NCBI RefSeq assembly: GCF_024055715.1
Contig: NZ_JAMXMV010000008.1
Span: forward strand, 124,001 to 188,000
Reading direction: 5' to 3'
Origin: Actinoallomurus soli
Lineage (GTDB): Bacteria; Actinomycetota; Actinomycetes; Streptosporangiales; Streptosporangiaceae
Length of the DNA stretch: 64,000 nt
Shown: piece by piece, positions 3,299 through 28,886 of the stretch
Layout of the letters: each line of letters begins with the position of its first letter
Numbering within the stretch: the first letter of the stretch is position 1
Notes under the pieces: generated by a model
Database searches by the model: none
The model's input: the letters and a program-made list of their open reading frames with translations, nothing else
Told to the model about the DNA's origin: nothing
Made by a program: the position numbers and the translations under genes

Positions 3299-3315
3299 AT
3301 CTCGTATAGTGAGAC
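3299..3315. promoter_or_regulatory. Putative BCAA operator upstream of the ilvB leader
   Basis: TCTC-GTATAG-TGAGAC, an inverted repeat whose half-sites flank a TATAGT -10 hexamer (3305-3310). The same TCTC-N6-TGAGAC pattern occurs upstream of leuB (23813-23829) and cimA (27109-27125). Binding here would cover the -10 box, as expected for a repressor. The regulator is not encoded in the window; an IclR protein of the LtbR/NdgR group is a guess. Confidence 0.55.
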
Positions 3316-3354: not shown

Positions 3355-3411
3355 ATGGTTGACACCATGAACCGCAACCTGATTCTCGTACTTGGTCGGC
3401 GCGCAAGCTGA
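3355..3411 (+). CDS. ilvB leader peptide (attenuation)
   Basis: A short reading frame upstream of ilvB ends MNRNLILVLGRRAS-stop, with five consecutive BCAA codons (Leu-Ile-Leu-Val-Leu, 3379-3393). The ATG at 3355 gives 18 residues; an in-frame ATG at 3367 gives 14. Its stop codon (3409-3411) lies inside the loop of the perfect hairpin 3399-3408/3423-3432, and an intrinsic terminator follows at 3434. This is the design of a ribosome-mediated attenuator: stalling at BCAA codons when charged tRNAs are scarce changes downstream RNA folding. Similar leaders are known before ilvB in other actinobacteria. Confidence 0.85.
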   Translation: MVDTMNRNLILVLGRRAS

Positions 3412-3477
3412 CCGAGTAGATCGCTTGCGCGCTCCCCTCGACCGCCATCCGGCGCGAGGGGTTTTTTGTTGGCCATA
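3394..3477 (+). terminator. ilvB attenuator: leader hairpin and intrinsic terminator
   Basis: The first stem pairs GCGCGCAAGC (3399-3408) with GCTTGCGCGC (3423-3432), loop 14 nt. The terminator pairs CCCCTCG (3434-3440) with CGAGGGG (3465-3471) and is followed by six T. A possible antiterminator extends the first stem by GGTCG (3394-3398) with CGACC (3439-3443), bulging six bases and taking part of the terminator's left arm. The two stems and the T-run are visible; the switching scheme is inference. Confidence 0.8.
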
Positions 3478-13025: not shown

Positions 13026-13705
13026 CGGCGAGCGCGCCGATCAGCGTGCTGATCGCCGACGACCAGGCGCTCGTGCGCGCGGGTCTCGTCGCGTTGGTGG
13101 GCGCACAGGCGGATCTCACCGTGGTCGCCGAGGCGGCCGACGGCGCGGAGGCGGTGGCGCGCGCCCGCGAGGTCCACCCCGACGTCGTGCTGATGGACAT
13201 CAGGATGCCCGTGCTGGACGGCCTGGCGGCGACCCGCCGGATCCTCACCGGATCGGCCGGCCCCGCGCCGCGCGTCGTCGTCCTGACCACCTACGACCTG
13301 GACGAGTACGTCTACGACGCGCTGTGCGCGGGGGCCTGCGGGTTCCTGCTGAAGCACGCGCCGCCGGAGGAGCTGCTCCTGGGCGTCCGCGCCGCCGCCG
13401 GCGGCGGCGCGCTCATCTCTCCGGCGGTGACGGGGCCGCTGATCGAGGCGTTCACCGGCAGGAGGCGCGCCCGGGCCCGGCCGCCGGTGGCCCTGGCCCG
13501 GCTCACCGCCCGCGAACGTGAGGTCTTCGACCTGGTGGTGGAGGGGAGGACGAACACGGAGATCGCCCGGATGCTGTCCATCGCCGAGACGACGGTCAAG
13601 ACGCATCTCGGGCGCGTTCTGGACAAGCTCGGCCTGCGCGACCGGGTGCACGCCGTGATGTACGCGTACGAGAACGCGCTCGTCCCGCCCGGCACCCGGC
13701 GGTGA
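13022..13705 (+). CDS. Response regulator, NarL/LuxR family
   Basis: A 227-residue regulator: receiver domain (residues 8-125) with acidic pocket IADDQ, phosphoacceptor Asp59 in VLMDIRMP, and a C-terminal LuxR helix-turn-helix (LTAREREVFDLVVEGRTNTEIA, about 160-220). It is translationally coupled to the kinase. The last 309 bp (13397-13705) are repeated almost exactly at 16959-17267, two mismatches over 394 bp; this copy is the intact gene. Confidence 0.95.
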   Translation: MTASAPISVLIADDQALVRAGLVALVGAQADLTVVAEAADGAEAVARAREVHPDVVLMDIRMPVLDGLAATRRILTGSAGPAPRVVVLTTYDLDEYVYDALCAGACGFLLKHAPPEELLLGVRAAAGGGALISPAVTGPLIEAFTGRRRARARPPVALARLTAREREVFDLVVEGRTNTEIARMLSIAETTVKTHLGRVLDKLGLRDRVHAVMYAYENALVPPGTRR

Positions 13706-13790
13706 GGGCCGATCGGTCAGCGCCGGACGACGTCGGCGTTCATGTCGGCGAGGAACTCCTCGCTCTCGGCGTCGGCGACGTGGGCGAACA
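13397..13790. repeat. 394-bp direct repeat, left copy
   Basis: Matches 16959-17352 with two mismatches by eye. It contains the last 309 bp of the response regulator and the adjoining 3' end of the convergent SseB-like gene. Together with the right copy it brackets about 3.2 kb of accessory DNA. Confidence 0.95.
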
Positions 13791-13886
13791 GACGAGGAAG
13801 CCCTGGATGTCGCTGAACGGGATGAGAGCGGCGTCGTCGCTCTCCGGGTCGATCACCATCGCCTGGACCTCGCCGCTGCGGGCGAT
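13717..13886 (-). pseudogene. SseB-like gene fragment
   Basis: A broken copy of the gene at 17279-17953. Bases 13717-13790 match 17279-17352 and 13791-13886 match 17618-17713, so 265 bp are missing inside, which also breaks the frame. The match stops abruptly at 13886 and unrelated sequence follows. No start codon region is present, so it is not functional. Confidence 0.9.
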
Positions 13887-16577: not shown

Positions 16578-16734
16578 GGTGTTGCGACGAGAGGGAGAGC
16601 GGGACGGTTTGCGGACGTACGCGTGATCGTGATCACCCTCGGCGTCACCGGCAGGATCGGCCAGACATGCCTCCGGCGGGGGTTCTCCGGCTCGGGGATG
16701 CCCCCGGCACGCGCCACTGTCGGCCAGGGACCAG

Positions 16735-16875
16735 GAACTTCGACGAGGTGTTCACCTCGCTGGGCGCGCGGGTGACCCGCACACCGGTCCGCGCACCACG
16801 AGCGAACGCGATGGCCGAACGCCGGGTCGCCACCGTACGCCGAGAGTGCACCGACCGGATCCTGATCACAGGTGT
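16735..16875 (+). pseudogene. Transposase/integrase-core remnant
   Basis: About 47 codons (NFDEVFTSLGARVTRTPVRA, then PRANAMAERRVATVRRECTD, then RILITG) match the end of a DDE integrase-core transposase of the IS3/IS481 kind; AERxVxTVRRECxDRILI is a typical segment with the third catalytic Glu. Neither end continues as transposase. It shows a mobile element once sat at the right end of the island. Confidence 0.75.
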
Positions 16876-16894: not shown

Positions 16895-16936
16895 GCCGGT
16901 GTGCGAGAACTCCTCCAGATGGGATCGCACACCGGC
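16895..16936. repeat. Perfect 12-bp inverted repeat
   Basis: GCCGGTGTGCGA (16895-16906) and TCGCACACCGGC (16925-16936) around 18 bp. It lies between the transposase remnant and the right copy of the direct repeat. Could be an element end, a hairpin, or chance in GC-rich DNA. Confidence 0.6.
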
Positions 16937-16958
16937 GTCGCCTATGAGGATCACTCGT

Positions 16959-17267
16959 GCCGGCGGCGGCGCGCTCATCTCTCCGGCGGTGACCGGGCCG
17001 CTGATCGAGGCGTTCACCGGCAGGAGGCGCGCCCGGGCCCGGCCGCCGGTGGCCCTGGCCCGGCTCACCGCCCGCGAACGTGAGGTCTTCGACCTGGTGG
17101 TGGAGGGGAGGACGAACACGGAGATCGCCCGGATGCTGTCCATCGCCGAGACGACGGTCAAGACGCATCTCGGGCGCGTTCTGGACAAGCTCGGCCTGCG
17201 CGACCGGGTGCACGCCGTGATGTACGCGTATGAGAACGCGCTCGTCCCGCCCGGCACCCGGCGGTGA
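16959..17267 (+). pseudogene. Response regulator C-terminal fragment
   Basis: Encodes the last 102 residues of the regulator at 13022-13705, including the whole LuxR helix-turn-helix, without the receiver domain. An ATG at 16899 is in frame and would add 20 unrelated residues, so a stand-alone DNA-binding peptide of 122 residues is conceivable, though no ribosome site or promoter is evident. Confidence 0.85.
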
Positions 17268-17352
17268 GGGCCGATCGGTCAGCGCCGGACGACGTCGGCG
17301 TTCATGTCGGCGAGGAACTCCTCGCTCTCGGCGTCGGCGACGTGGGCGAACA
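16959..17352. repeat. 394-bp direct repeat, right copy
   Basis: Near-identical copy of 13397-13790. It holds a C-terminal response regulator fragment and joins directly to the intact SseB-like gene. Confidence 0.95.
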
Positions 17353-17953
17353 CCGGGACGTCGCTGGCCGGCAGCTTTTCCATCGTCGCCTGCAGCAGCT
17401 CATTGGCCAGCTGCGGGTCGGCGCCCTCGGAGACCACGACGTGCAGCATGATGCCCTCCACGCCGCTGGGCATCCGGACGTCGGAGATCCAGACCCGCTC
17501 GACCGCGGGGTAGTCCGAGAGCCGCTCGGCGACGCCCTCCTTCAGGGGCCCGACCAGCTCGTGCTCGCTGGCGCGGAACGCCACCTCGACGTCCTCGTCG
17601 ACGCCCATGCCCTGGGTGACGAGGAAGCCCTGGACGTCGCTGAACGGGATGAGAGCGGCGTCGTCGCTCTCCGGGTCGATCACCATCGCCTGGACCTCGC
17701 CGCTGCGGGCGATCTCCAGCAGCAGGGCCGCGTCGGCGTGCTGGAACTCCTCGCTCGCGGACTTCTCGCTGTACGCCTCCGGGCGCGTGAAGGCGGCCAG
17801 CGCGACGGACTCGTCCTCCAGCTGCCCCACCAGGACCGAGCCGTCGGGGTTCGTCACGATGAGGACCCCGCCGTCGACGAGCGCGCGCAGGATCTCCTCA
17901 GGTTCACCGCGCTGAGCGAGCACGTCGGCCAGCTTCGGGTTTCCATTAGCCAT
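17279..17953 (-). CDS. SseB family protein
   Basis: A 224-residue cytoplasmic protein of the SseB (enhanced serine sensitivity) family: N-terminal SseB domain (LADVLAQRGEPEEILRALVD to about residue 115) and a C-terminal SseB_C-like part with VERVWISDVRMPSG and a beta-strand VEGIMLHVVVS. ATG 17953 is taken. The E. coli namesake affects serine sensitivity, and serA lies next door, but a functional link is not shown. Convergent with the regulator fragment, 11 bp apart. A deleted copy lies at 13717-13886. Confidence 0.88.
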   Translation of the reverse strand: MANGNPKLADVLAQRGEPEEILRALVDGGVLIVTNPDGSVLVGQLEDESVALAAFTRPEAYSEKSASEEFQHADAALLLEIARSGEVQAMVIDPESDDAALIPFSDVQGFLVTQGMGVDEDVEVAFRASEHELVGPLKEGVAERLSDYPAVERVWISDVRMPSGVEGIMLHVVVSEGADPQLANELLQATMEKLPASDVPVFAHVADAESEEFLADMNADVVRR

Positions 17954-26608: not shown

Positions 26609-26959
26609 TCAGCCGGCCGGTGTCGATCGTGCGTAGACGTGGTCGTCGCCCCACAGGGGCGGATCCTGCGGCACGACCAGCACGTCCGGCCGGTACCGGT
26701 CCACCTGGGGACCGAGGAAGAGCGCGACGTCCTGCCAGATCTCCCAGCCGCGCTCGGTGACGAAGGGCATGAGCTGGAGCAGGAGCCGGAAGATGATCCG
26801 AGCGTGATCAGTGGTGGGCACCTCTCTCACCACGATCCGGCCGTCGATGACCTCGACCTTGCGGTCCGGCCAGCGCCGGCTGAGCTCCGCGTAGCGGCGC
26901 TCGACCTCGGTGCGTTCGTCGGTGTCCACGTCGATCGGCTTCTCCAGCACGATGGACAT
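26609..26959 (-). pseudogene. Truncated Uma2 family (DUF820) protein
   Basis: 116 residues matching the N-terminal half of the Uma2 nuclease-fold family, abundant in actinomycetes and usually about 190 residues. VEVIDGRIVV, HARIIFRLLLQL and RYRPDVLVVPQDP are typical. The part that normally follows, with the second acidic residue and Lys of the nuclease site, is missing: the frame ends soon after DHVYAR. It may be a decayed gene. Confidence 0.7.
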
Positions 26960-27108: not shown

Positions 27109-27125
27109 GTCTCGGGTGATGAGAC
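27109..27125. promoter_or_regulatory. Putative BCAA operator upstream of cimA
   Basis: GTCTC-GGGTGAT-GAGAC. It shares the core TCTC-N6-TGAGAC with the ilvB and leuB sites, and GACGAGTT lies just upstream as it does at leuB. Located 45 bp before the cimA leader peptide. Confidence 0.55.
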
Positions 27126-27169
27126 GGATGTGTCCGTCGCGGCGGGGATGTGGCAGACTCGGTGCCATC

Positions 27170-27214
27170 ATGCGCAGCAGCCTGGTCATTATCGGCTGGC
27201 GCGCCGGCACCTAG
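27170..27214 (+). CDS. cimA leader peptide (attenuation)
   Basis: A 14-residue frame MRSSLVIIGWRAGT-stop, with Leu-Val-Ile-Ile in a row (27182-27193). The stop (27212-27214) lies in the loop of the perfect hairpin 27199-27208/27226-27235 and is followed by an intrinsic terminator, the same design as the ilvB leader. No strong ribosome site is visible, so initiation is inferred from the codon content and layout. Confidence 0.8.
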   Translation: MRSSLVIIGWRAGT

Positions 27215-27271
27215 ACGAGCACTCCGCCGGCGCGCAGACCTCTCACGTCCCGTGAGGGGTCGTTTTGTTTT
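27199..27271 (+). terminator. cimA attenuator: leader hairpin and intrinsic terminator
   Basis: First stem GCGCGCCGGC (27199-27208) with GCCGGCGCGC (27226-27235), 17-nt loop. Terminator stem GACCTCTCACG (27237-27247) with CGTGAGGGGTC (27251-27261), then GTTTTGTTTT. Switching by ribosome position on the leader is inferred. Confidence 0.8.
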
Positions 27272-27314
27272 GCGGCGCCGGCGCACAATCCGGGACTACC
27301 AAGGGGATCGACCC

Positions 27315-28886
27315 ATGCGGGATGACGGCTTCCACGTCTACGACACGACGTTGCGCGACGGGGCCCAGCAGGAGGGCCTCAACCTCACCGTGGCGGACAA
27401 GCTGATCATCGCGCGCCGCCTCGACGAGCTGGGCGTCGGGTTCATCGAGGGCGGCTGGCCCGGAGCCAATCCCAAGGACACCGAGTTCTTCCGGCTCGCC
27501 CGGACGGAGCTCGATCTCAAGCACGCGCAGCTCGCCGCGTTCGGCGCGACCCGCCGGGCCGGCGCGAAGGCCGCCGACGACCCTCTGGTGGCCGCGCTGC
27601 GCGAGTCCGGCGCGCCGGTCGTGACCCTTGTCGCCAAGAGCCACGACCGGCACGTCGAGCTGGCCCTCCGCACGACGCTGGAGGAGAACCTCGCGATGAT
27701 CCGCGACACCGTCTCCCACCTGCGTGCGGAGGGCCAGAGGGTCTTCCTCGACGCCGAGCACTTCTTCGACGGTTACCGGTCGAACCCGGCCTACGCCCTG
27801 GAGGTCGTGCGGACCGCCGCCGAGGCCGGTGCGGACGTCATCGCCCTGTGCGACACCAACGGCGGGATGCTGCCCGACGAGCTGGCCGACGTCGTCGCCG
27901 CGGTCGCGGCCGAAGGCGCGCGGCTGGGCATCCACTGCCACGACGACAGCGGCTGCGCGGTGGCCAACACCCTCGCGGCCGTGCGCGCCGGGGTGACGCA
28001 CGTCCAGGGCTGCGCCAACGGGTACGGCGAGCGCAGCGGCAACGCGAACCTCTTCACGGTCGTCGGCAACCTGCAGCTCAAGCGCGGCTACGACCTCGGT
28101 GTCGAGCTGCGGGAGATGACGCGGATCGCGCACGCCGTCTCCGAGGTGACCAACGTCGCGCCCAGCTCGCAGCAGCCGTACGTCGGCATGTCGGCGTTCG
28201 CTCACAAGGCGGGCCTGCACGCCTCGGCGGTCAAGGTCGACCCGATGCTGTACCAGCACATCGACCCGGAGCTGGTCGGCAACGACATGCGCATGCTGAT
28301 CTCCAGCATGGCGGGCCGGGCGTCGGTGGAGCTCAAGGGCCGGGAGCTGGGGTACGAGCTGTCCGGCGACAAGGCGCGGCAGGTCGTGGAGCGGGTCAAG
28401 GAGCTCGAGTCGGCCGGTTACACCTTCGAGGCGGCGGACGCGTCGTTCGAACTCCTGCTGCGCGAGGAGGCCGACGGGGAGCGCACCCGCTACTTCGAGG
28501 TGGAGTCCTGGCGGACGATCGTCGAGCGCCGGCCCGACGGCGTCATGGTCAGCGAGGCGACCGTCAAGCTGCACGCCAAGGGCGAGCGGATCGTCGCGAC
28601 CGGTGAGGGCAACGGCCCGGTCAACGCCCTGGACCGCGCCCTGCGGCTGGCCCTGGAGCGGATCTACCCGGAGCTGTCCGCCCTGGAGCTCGTCGACTAC
28701 AAGGTGCGGATCCTGGAGGGTGCGCACGGCACCGACGCGCGCACCCGGGTGCTCATCGAGTCCAGCGACGCCTCCGGCGAGTGGGGCACCGTCGGCGTCG
28801 AGGACAACGTCATCGCCGCCTCCTGGGAGGCTCTCGCGGAGTCGGTGACCTACTGCCTCCTGCGCGCCGGATACGGCGCGTCCTGA
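27315..28886 (+). CDS. cimA: (R)-citramalate synthase
   Basis: Condenses acetyl-CoA with pyruvate to citramalate, giving 2-oxobutanoate for isoleucine without threonine. 523 residues with the LeuA-like barrel: YDTTLRDGAQQEGLN, FIEGGWPGANPKD, HCHDDSGCAVANTLAAVRAG and the metal-binding His region, then a C-terminal LeuA dimer/allosteric domain for feedback inhibition. The GGWPG...D variant and length fit CimA rather than 2-isopropylmalate synthase. The start ATG 27315 follows the attenuator by 43 bp; the long upstream open frame runs through the leader hairpins and is not used. Confidence 0.93.
   Translation: MRDDGFHVYDTTLRDGAQQEGLNLTVADKLIIARRLDELGVGFIEGGWPGANPKDTEFFRLARTELDLKHAQLAAFGATRRAGAKAADDPLVAALRESGAPVVTLVAKSHDRHVELALRTTLEENLAMIRDTVSHLRAEGQRVFLDAEHFFDGYRSNPAYALEVVRTAAEAGADVIALCDTNGGMLPDELADVVAAVAAEGARLGIHCHDDSGCAVANTLAAVRAGVTHVQGCANGYGERSGNANLFTVVGNLQLKRGYDLGVELREMTRIAHAVSEVTNVAPSSQQPYVGMSAFAHKAGLHASAVKVDPMLYQHIDPELVGNDMRMLISSMAGRASVELKGRELGYELSGDKARQVVERVKELESAGYTFEAADASFELLLREEADGERTRYFEVESWRTIVERRPDGVMVSEATVKLHAKGERIVATGEGNGPVNALDRALRLALERIYPELSALELVDYKVRILEGAHGTDARTRVLIESSDASGEWGTVGVEDNVIAASWEALAESVTYCLLRAGYGAS

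Follow-up and report, generated by a model that had tools for sequence, protein, structure and literature searches.

In Actinobacteria, leaders upstream of ilvB were predicted in 2005, in a survey that included Thermobifida fusca (Seliverstov et al., PMC1262725). The paper reports no conserved structures upstream of other amino acid pathway genes, and it cites older work in which mutagenesis of the control codons of Streptomyces coelicolor ilvB was reported to be without effect. For Mycobacterium tuberculosis ilvB1, a leader reporter is induced by inhibition of branched-chain synthesis, and replacement of LVVI by AAAA abolishes the induction; among these sources, this is the only leader for which control-codon dependence of regulation has been shown (PMC13236596). 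A transcriptome study of Streptomyces lividans describes ilvL as MRTRILVLGKRVG with a leaderless start, and none of its eight leaders belongs to cimA (PMC8079986). Likewise, the element described here is absent from the accessible parts of all three ilvB-leader papers. An earlier note on this DNA had called attenuation of citramalate synthase little described, and our literature search agrees with it: subscription papers aside, we found no leader or attenuator described for cimA or SCO5529.

Citramalate synthase is the entry step of the threonine-independent isoleucine route. Its gene, cimA, occupies 27315..28886 on the plus strand of the 64,000-nucleotide stretch of Actinoallomurus soli DNA analyzed here (the window), preceded by a ribosome-binding region read from the sequence (AAGGGGATCGACCC, 27301..27314, plus strand). 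The 523-codon ORF scored 645.6 bits against TIGR00977 in a profile search (cut-off 450). Matches at E<=0.001 were found in 60 of 60 relatives searched, some of which had only LeuA-type homologues; among named organisms, Actinoallomurus spadix had the nearest cimA (98% identity), ahead of Actinomadura, Nonomuraea and others. The window also holds leuB (23849), ilvE (24996), serA (18138) and ilvB (about 3562). Since the gene upstream of the leader (26609-26959) lies on the opposite strand, we assigned the leader to cimA. Elsewhere in the window, the 3' portion of a gene for a LuxR-type response regulator and the DNA following it occur twice, at about 13340-13800 and 16900-17360. Both copies have a PGTRR ending followed by MRADRSAPDDVGVHVGEELLALGVGDVGE, and a transposase-like fragment lies beside one copy, near 16600-16800; judging from the sequence, the repeat appears to be a segmental duplication.

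The earlier note had proposed a leader peptide specific to cimA, its stop codon placed inside a 10-bp hairpin loop, followed by an 11-bp terminator and a U-tract. This observation was confirmed to the base, with every part of it present. The leader peptide, MRSSLVIIGWRAGT, is encoded by 14 codons on the plus strand (27170..27214; ATG at 27170, TAG stop at 27212-27214) and is supported by orthologous short ORFs with conserved isoleucine in 125 genomes. Its control codons, AUU AUC (Ile-Ile), occupy 27188..27193 of the same strand, the last of them 8 nt upstream of the first hairpin. Hairpin 1 comprises 10 bp and a 17-nt loop that contains the leader stop codon. Its 5' arm, GCGCGCCGGC (27199..27208, plus strand), consists of the last leader codons and is supported by covariation and folding, and its 3' arm, GCCGGCGCGC (27226..27235, plus strand), by an arm permutation test. 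Starting one base past hairpin 1, an intrinsic terminator stem-loop, GACCTCTCACG-TCC-CGTGAGGGGTC (27237..27261, plus strand), forms an 11-bp stem in which 27237-27247 pairs with 27251-27261, and the U-tract GTTTTGTTTTG follows (27262..27272, plus strand). The transcript 27170-27275 is predicted to fold into both hairpins at -54.5 kcal/mol, whereas dinucleotide shuffles gave -40.3 +/- 3.6 kcal/mol (z = -4.0), none of the 200 reaching so low an energy, and a scan for terminator-like sites found 2 against 0.1 expected.

Upstream of the leader, a -10-like hexamer, CAGACT (27154..27159, plus strand), lies 10 nt 5' of the ATG. This hexamer is no match to the sigma-70 consensus; in about nine-tenths of the leaders considered below, a CANNNT or TANNNT hexamer precedes the start codon at a distance of 3-14 nt (mostly 6-10). 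Its position implies, as we infer from the sequence, that the leader mRNA is leaderless or almost so. Further upstream, an inverted repeat, GTCTC-N7-GAGAC (27109..27125, plus strand), was read from the sequence; its first base, 27109, is also where the interval of the earlier note begins, and it lies 5' of the transcribed element. A TCTC-N6..8-GAGA repeat also precedes the ilvB promoter (3300-3314), and such repeats occur in 24 of 44 cimA upstream regions of the same family, 12 of 109 others and 17 of 55 ilvB upstream regions. We regard it as a candidate operator, possibly common to cimA and ilvB. NdgR was considered as the factor for this repeat and set aside, as the repeat is unlike its published ChIP-seq motif (PMC4340878) when the two are compared by eye rather than by motif scan.

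The earlier note had suggested comparing upstream regions of cimA in other actinomycetes. We assembled such regions from 153 genomes, which represent 33 families of the class (f1 holds the genera Actinoallomurus, Actinomadura and Nonomuraea; f20 includes Streptomyces). A codon-blind search for two hairpins followed by a T-run recovered the tandem arrangement in 129 of the 153. Leader ORFs, picked for their start codon, a -10 hexamer and the place of the stop, with no use of isoleucine content, were clear in 125 genomes from 25 families and encode peptides of 7-22 residues. The peptides are diverse (MTYSLIIS, MFYCMIII, VAQALIIG, VLHHVIIIR, MTTFVIIIGKRV, MLRSRSIIG, VRSLTIIGP, VLSFATIIGSRRAGPQ), and isoleucine is their sole conserved feature. 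Ile-Ile is present in 112 of 125 and the remaining 13 have two separated isoleucines or a single one (8 of 125). Isoleucine leaders were found at 71 of the 80 loci with organism names, among them Actinoallomurus, Actinomadura, Nonomuraea, many Streptomyces and Thermobifida; the leader of Thermobifida fusca cimA is MPPQAIIIVRRAG. The tandem hairpins were missing from 24 regions, including almost all sampled members of f19 and f25, and essentially no isoleucine leader was found in these 24. This co-occurrence of leaders and hairpins counts in favour of an attenuator. The earlier note had named a leader frame or codons left unconserved within conserved DNA as the outcome that would speak against it; the isoleucine codons proved to be conserved, which favours its reading.

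Several lineages depart from this pattern. The cimA genes of f19 and f25 (for example L114, L135 and L074) have neither leader nor tandem hairpins; in f25 cimA sits directly after ilvE, and the f19 upstream regions have a different GC-rich conserved sequence in common. At L024 the leader keeps Ile-Ile and has lost the usual stop, so that the frame continues through the terminator. In some Streptomyces-type leaders of f20 (L050, L053, L058, L060) M-I-M replaces I-I, and only the central AUU is kept.

Both hairpins are conserved as structures. When arms were permuted with those of other families, hairpin 1 was far more stable in its matched than in its permuted form (-18.0 versus -12.8 kcal/mol, z = -9.4); for the arms of the terminator, z was -8.2. 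An RNAalifold alignment of 50 sequences contained double-sided changes in 8 of 15 pairs, with column pair 42:70 occurring as CG 24, UA 16, AU 2 and GC 1 times. Given this comparative evidence, the cimA leader and its two hairpins are confirmed as real, beyond chance.

The codons themselves carry a further signal. AUU is present in all 125 leaders and accounts for 169 of 274 leader isoleucine codons, versus 14 of 841 (1.7%) in the cimA ORFs of 53 of these loci. The Fisher p of about 1e-107 overstates independence, as the genomes are related; when each family contributes a single leader (32 AUU, 21 AUC) the trend is the same, with p about 1e-33. Among the 112 Ile-Ile pairs, AUU-AUC occurs 50 times, AUU-AUU 41, AUC-AUU 21 and AUC-AUC not at all. 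Third bases thus vary within a preserved Ile-Ile, which is the signature of coding and would go unexplained if the RNA were purely structural. This preference for the rare AUU (and for GUA and CUU in ilvB leaders, by a seeded count) points to selection for control codons that are read slowly.

These patterns bear on whether the element might be a protein- or ligand-binding RNA, such as a riboswitch or T-box, in place of a leader peptide. The alignment does contain invariant GCGC bases, and the structure is strong and GC-rich. However, where unpaired bases are conserved they belong to the isoleucine codons, and start, stop and reading frame are preserved despite leader lengths of 7 to 22 codons. 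Rfam searches, T-box included, returned no family at gathering score. We therefore hold an RNA element of this kind to be extremely unlikely. The best Rfam hit, at 27166-27278, was a weak resemblance to Atu_C8, a rhizobial sRNA to which the element is unrelated (24.6 bits, cut-off 50); it is perhaps a convergent tandem-hairpin leader.

The spacing of the element is constrained as well. The last isoleucine codon starts 8-11 nt upstream of the hairpin 1 arm in 114 of 124 leaders, so that, as in trp-type attenuators, a ribosome stalled there would cover the 5' arm. The stop codon is variable relative to the same arm (-4 to +23), falling 2-4 nt before it in many families and 7-23 nt past its start in others. 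What selection has fixed is where the control codons lie with respect to hairpin 1, not where the stop lies, as expected if a ribosome halted at isoleucine has to make contact with the base of that hairpin. Hairpin 1 in turn adjoins the terminator: of 124 leaders, 101 have no nucleotide between the two and 18 have a single one.

The earlier note had also claimed that the layout copies the ilvB leader, and the architecture is indeed the same. The ilvB leader of the window (MNRNLILVLGRRAS, 3367..3411, plus strand) has its own hairpin and terminator, extending to about 3470. A covariance model was trained on 50 cimA leaders, this locus among them, and run on the 9.4 Mb genome, where it found two convincing places: the cimA leader at 77.8 bits, a score for a sequence on which it was trained, and the untrained ilvB leader (window 3361-3470) at 32.2 bits (E 8e-4). 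Nothing else in the genome fell below E = 0.3. Outside the class most of what the model found were ilvB leaders carrying LVLI or LVVI, together with one cimA leader with four isoleucines (TSIIIIR). In other classes of the phylum, the element was also seen upstream of two leuB-like genes, L240 and L245 (leaders SIVIIR and QVVIIR), which may also serve the citramalate route.

For a direct comparison, we gathered ilvB upstream regions from 54 of the same genomes and from this window. The hairpin 1 and terminator arrangement resembles that of cimA in the printed folds, to which this comparison was confined because the ilvB terminator register was off in 17-18 of 52 sequences. These leaders have the spacing of the cimA leaders and often share a GRRAG end, but they carry Leu-Val; in f20 genomes the leader is MRTRILVLGKRVG. 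Isoleucine makes up 20%, leucine 7.5% and valine 4.4% of codons in the 125 cimA leaders, whereas the shares in the ilvB leaders of the same genomes are 5%, 18% and 15%, from a set seeded on the valine codon GTA, whose GTA count is therefore circular. The pair of cimA (Ile-Ile) and ilvB (Leu-Val) is a natural swap of control codons within one shared architecture, and such a swap within the same genomes argues that the codons are the sensor.

The same comparison narrows the branched-chain sensing envisaged by the earlier note to isoleucine; its leucine and valine parts did not hold up. A general branched-chain sensor, in which leucine and valine codons count too, would fit the Leu-Val ahead of Ile-Ile in the leader of the window and the LL of many relatives within its own family. 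Outside that family, however, leucine and valine are absent or variable while isoleucine is always there, and ilvB leaders show the opposite codon bias. We find a general sensor improbable; most likely, on this codon evidence, the cimA leader reads Ile-tRNA alone.

Together, the leader ORF, the conserved isoleucine and AUU, their fixed distance from hairpin 1, and the covarying, abutting hairpins lead us to regard the cimA element as very probably a ribosome-mediated transcription attenuator that senses charged isoleucine tRNA. RNA polymerase would start at or just upstream of the leader ATG (27170), and a ribosome would initiate the 14-codon leader without a Shine-Dalgarno sequence. With Ile-tRNA plentiful, the ribosome would reach the stop, which lies inside the hairpin 1 loop here and just before hairpin 1 in most other families, and depart; polymerase would then halt at the terminator (27237-27272). 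With Ile-tRNA scarce, the ribosome would stall at AUU-AUC, 8-11 nt upstream of hairpin 1, and prevent the base of hairpin 1 from pairing. Transcription would read through into cimA, and the supply of 2-ketobutyrate for isoleucine would be restored. We infer the leaderless start, leader translation, stalling and regulation from the sequence, and take the sign of the response (isoleucine shortage leading to read-through) by analogy from the M. tuberculosis ilvB1 reporter. Some leaders count against this reading, namely those with a single isoleucine (8 of 125) or with MIM (a few Streptomyces), as does the codon-change result reported for S. coelicolor ilvB (cited in PMC1262725).

How a stalled ribosome would act on the terminator was approached through predicted folds, in which a 26-nt occlusion stood for the ribosome, following the treatment of M. 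tuberculosis ilvB1 (PMC13236596). In most families the predicted terminator probability was about 0.95-0.99 whether the ribosome was absent, at isoleucine or at the stop; exceptions were f8 and f28 (0.57-0.58 when stalled) and f14, whose bulged terminator was scored out of register. Hairpin 1 was predicted at about 0.9-1.0 with no ribosome and at roughly 0.2-0.6 with a ribosome at isoleucine, and was mostly lost with one at the stop. A terminator predicted in all ribosome states is what a constitutive terminator would give, the hairpins setting a fixed read-through fraction and the ORF being decorative rather than a sensor. Yet across 25 families of otherwise variable peptides, isoleucine, rare AUU and the distance to hairpin 1 are conserved, and ilvB leaders carry pathway-appropriate Leu-Val. 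We consider a constitutive terminator very unlikely.

In a classical trp/his-type attenuator, the stalled ribosome would permit an antiterminator helix that excludes the terminator. Leader ORF, control codons, 1:2 hairpin and terminator are all present here, and for M. tuberculosis ilvB1 a helix of this mutually exclusive kind has been proposed (PMC13236596). However, among candidate antiterminator pairings involving the hairpin 1 3' arm, loop, leader, terminator arms and downstream DNA, none beat cross-family permutation (z = +1.4, +0.07, +2.4, -0.25 and similar). The main pairings, including those with the terminator arms, were also no better than shuffled controls, and for almost all families and ribosome positions the prediction still gives the terminator. 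The classical scheme therefore seems unlikely: the earlier note's attenuator stands as a leader with an attenuator-like terminator and is not supported as strict classical attenuation, for which no terminator-excluding helix was found. Two specific pairings were considered and rejected. That between GGTCTGC in the leader and GCAGACC at the border of hairpin 1 and terminator occurs in only part of the family and is absent elsewhere, and a loop-loop pairing, GGAC/GTCC, is lineage-restricted as judged by eye.

As a competing helix was not found, we prefer, over a classical antiterminator, a model in which the abutting hairpin acts mechanically and directly on terminator closure in the polymerase exit channel, or else affects pausing. 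From the modelled folds, we think that hairpin 1 is the switching element, acting on the terminator via its position. Extending this to a class-wide mode of antiterminator-free attenuation is a tentative suggestion, and somewhat doubtful. In it, the isoleucine-stopped ribosome would determine whether the abutting hairpin forms, and this hairpin would alter termination mechanically, by stacking on the terminator or blocking it in the polymerase exit channel; cimA and ilvB would use the same switch with exchanged codons.

In Streptomyces, Nonomuraea, Actinomadura, Thermobifida and a wide range of further actinomycetes, of which several produce antibiotics or enzymes, the element probably gives the citramalate route an isoleucine-specific control point. 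It also sharpens an old puzzle, that of actinobacterial branched-chain attenuators with leader, codons and terminator, and apparently without antiterminator. The 0-nt hairpin spacing offers a concrete, testable lead on this missing part.

Among known systems, the E. coli trp, his and ilv attenuators share with the cimA element a leader peptide rich in the end product, a 1:2 hairpin and a terminator; unlike them, the cimA element has no exclusive 2:3 antiterminator that we could find, a probably leaderless start and a very short ORF. The translational T-box of actinobacterial ileS likewise senses isoleucine tRNA charging, but the window has no T-box match, and sensing at cimA would proceed via leader translation. 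The actinobacterial LEU element upstream of leuA also places a control-codon leader ORF before a homologous enzyme gene. As described in PMC1262725, it is a leucine-run pseudoknot that pairs with the leuA Shine-Dalgarno sequence and has no terminator, whereas the cimA element has a terminator and conserves isoleucine but not leucine. The closest likeness is to the actinobacterial ilvB attenuator, which is carried by the same genomes. In both, a short branched-chain-codon ORF lies directly upstream of the gene and near a hairpin, an intrinsic terminator with a U-tract follows, and the two are akin in sequence and structure. The probably leaderless start also has a counterpart, in S. lividans ilvL. 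The differences are that the present element precedes cimA and that its codons are Ile-Ile (AUU) rather than the Leu-Val (CUC-GUA) of ilvB. We conclude that the cimA element is real and well supported, and that it is best read as an attenuator of the actinobacterial ilvB type in which no antiterminator can be recognised.
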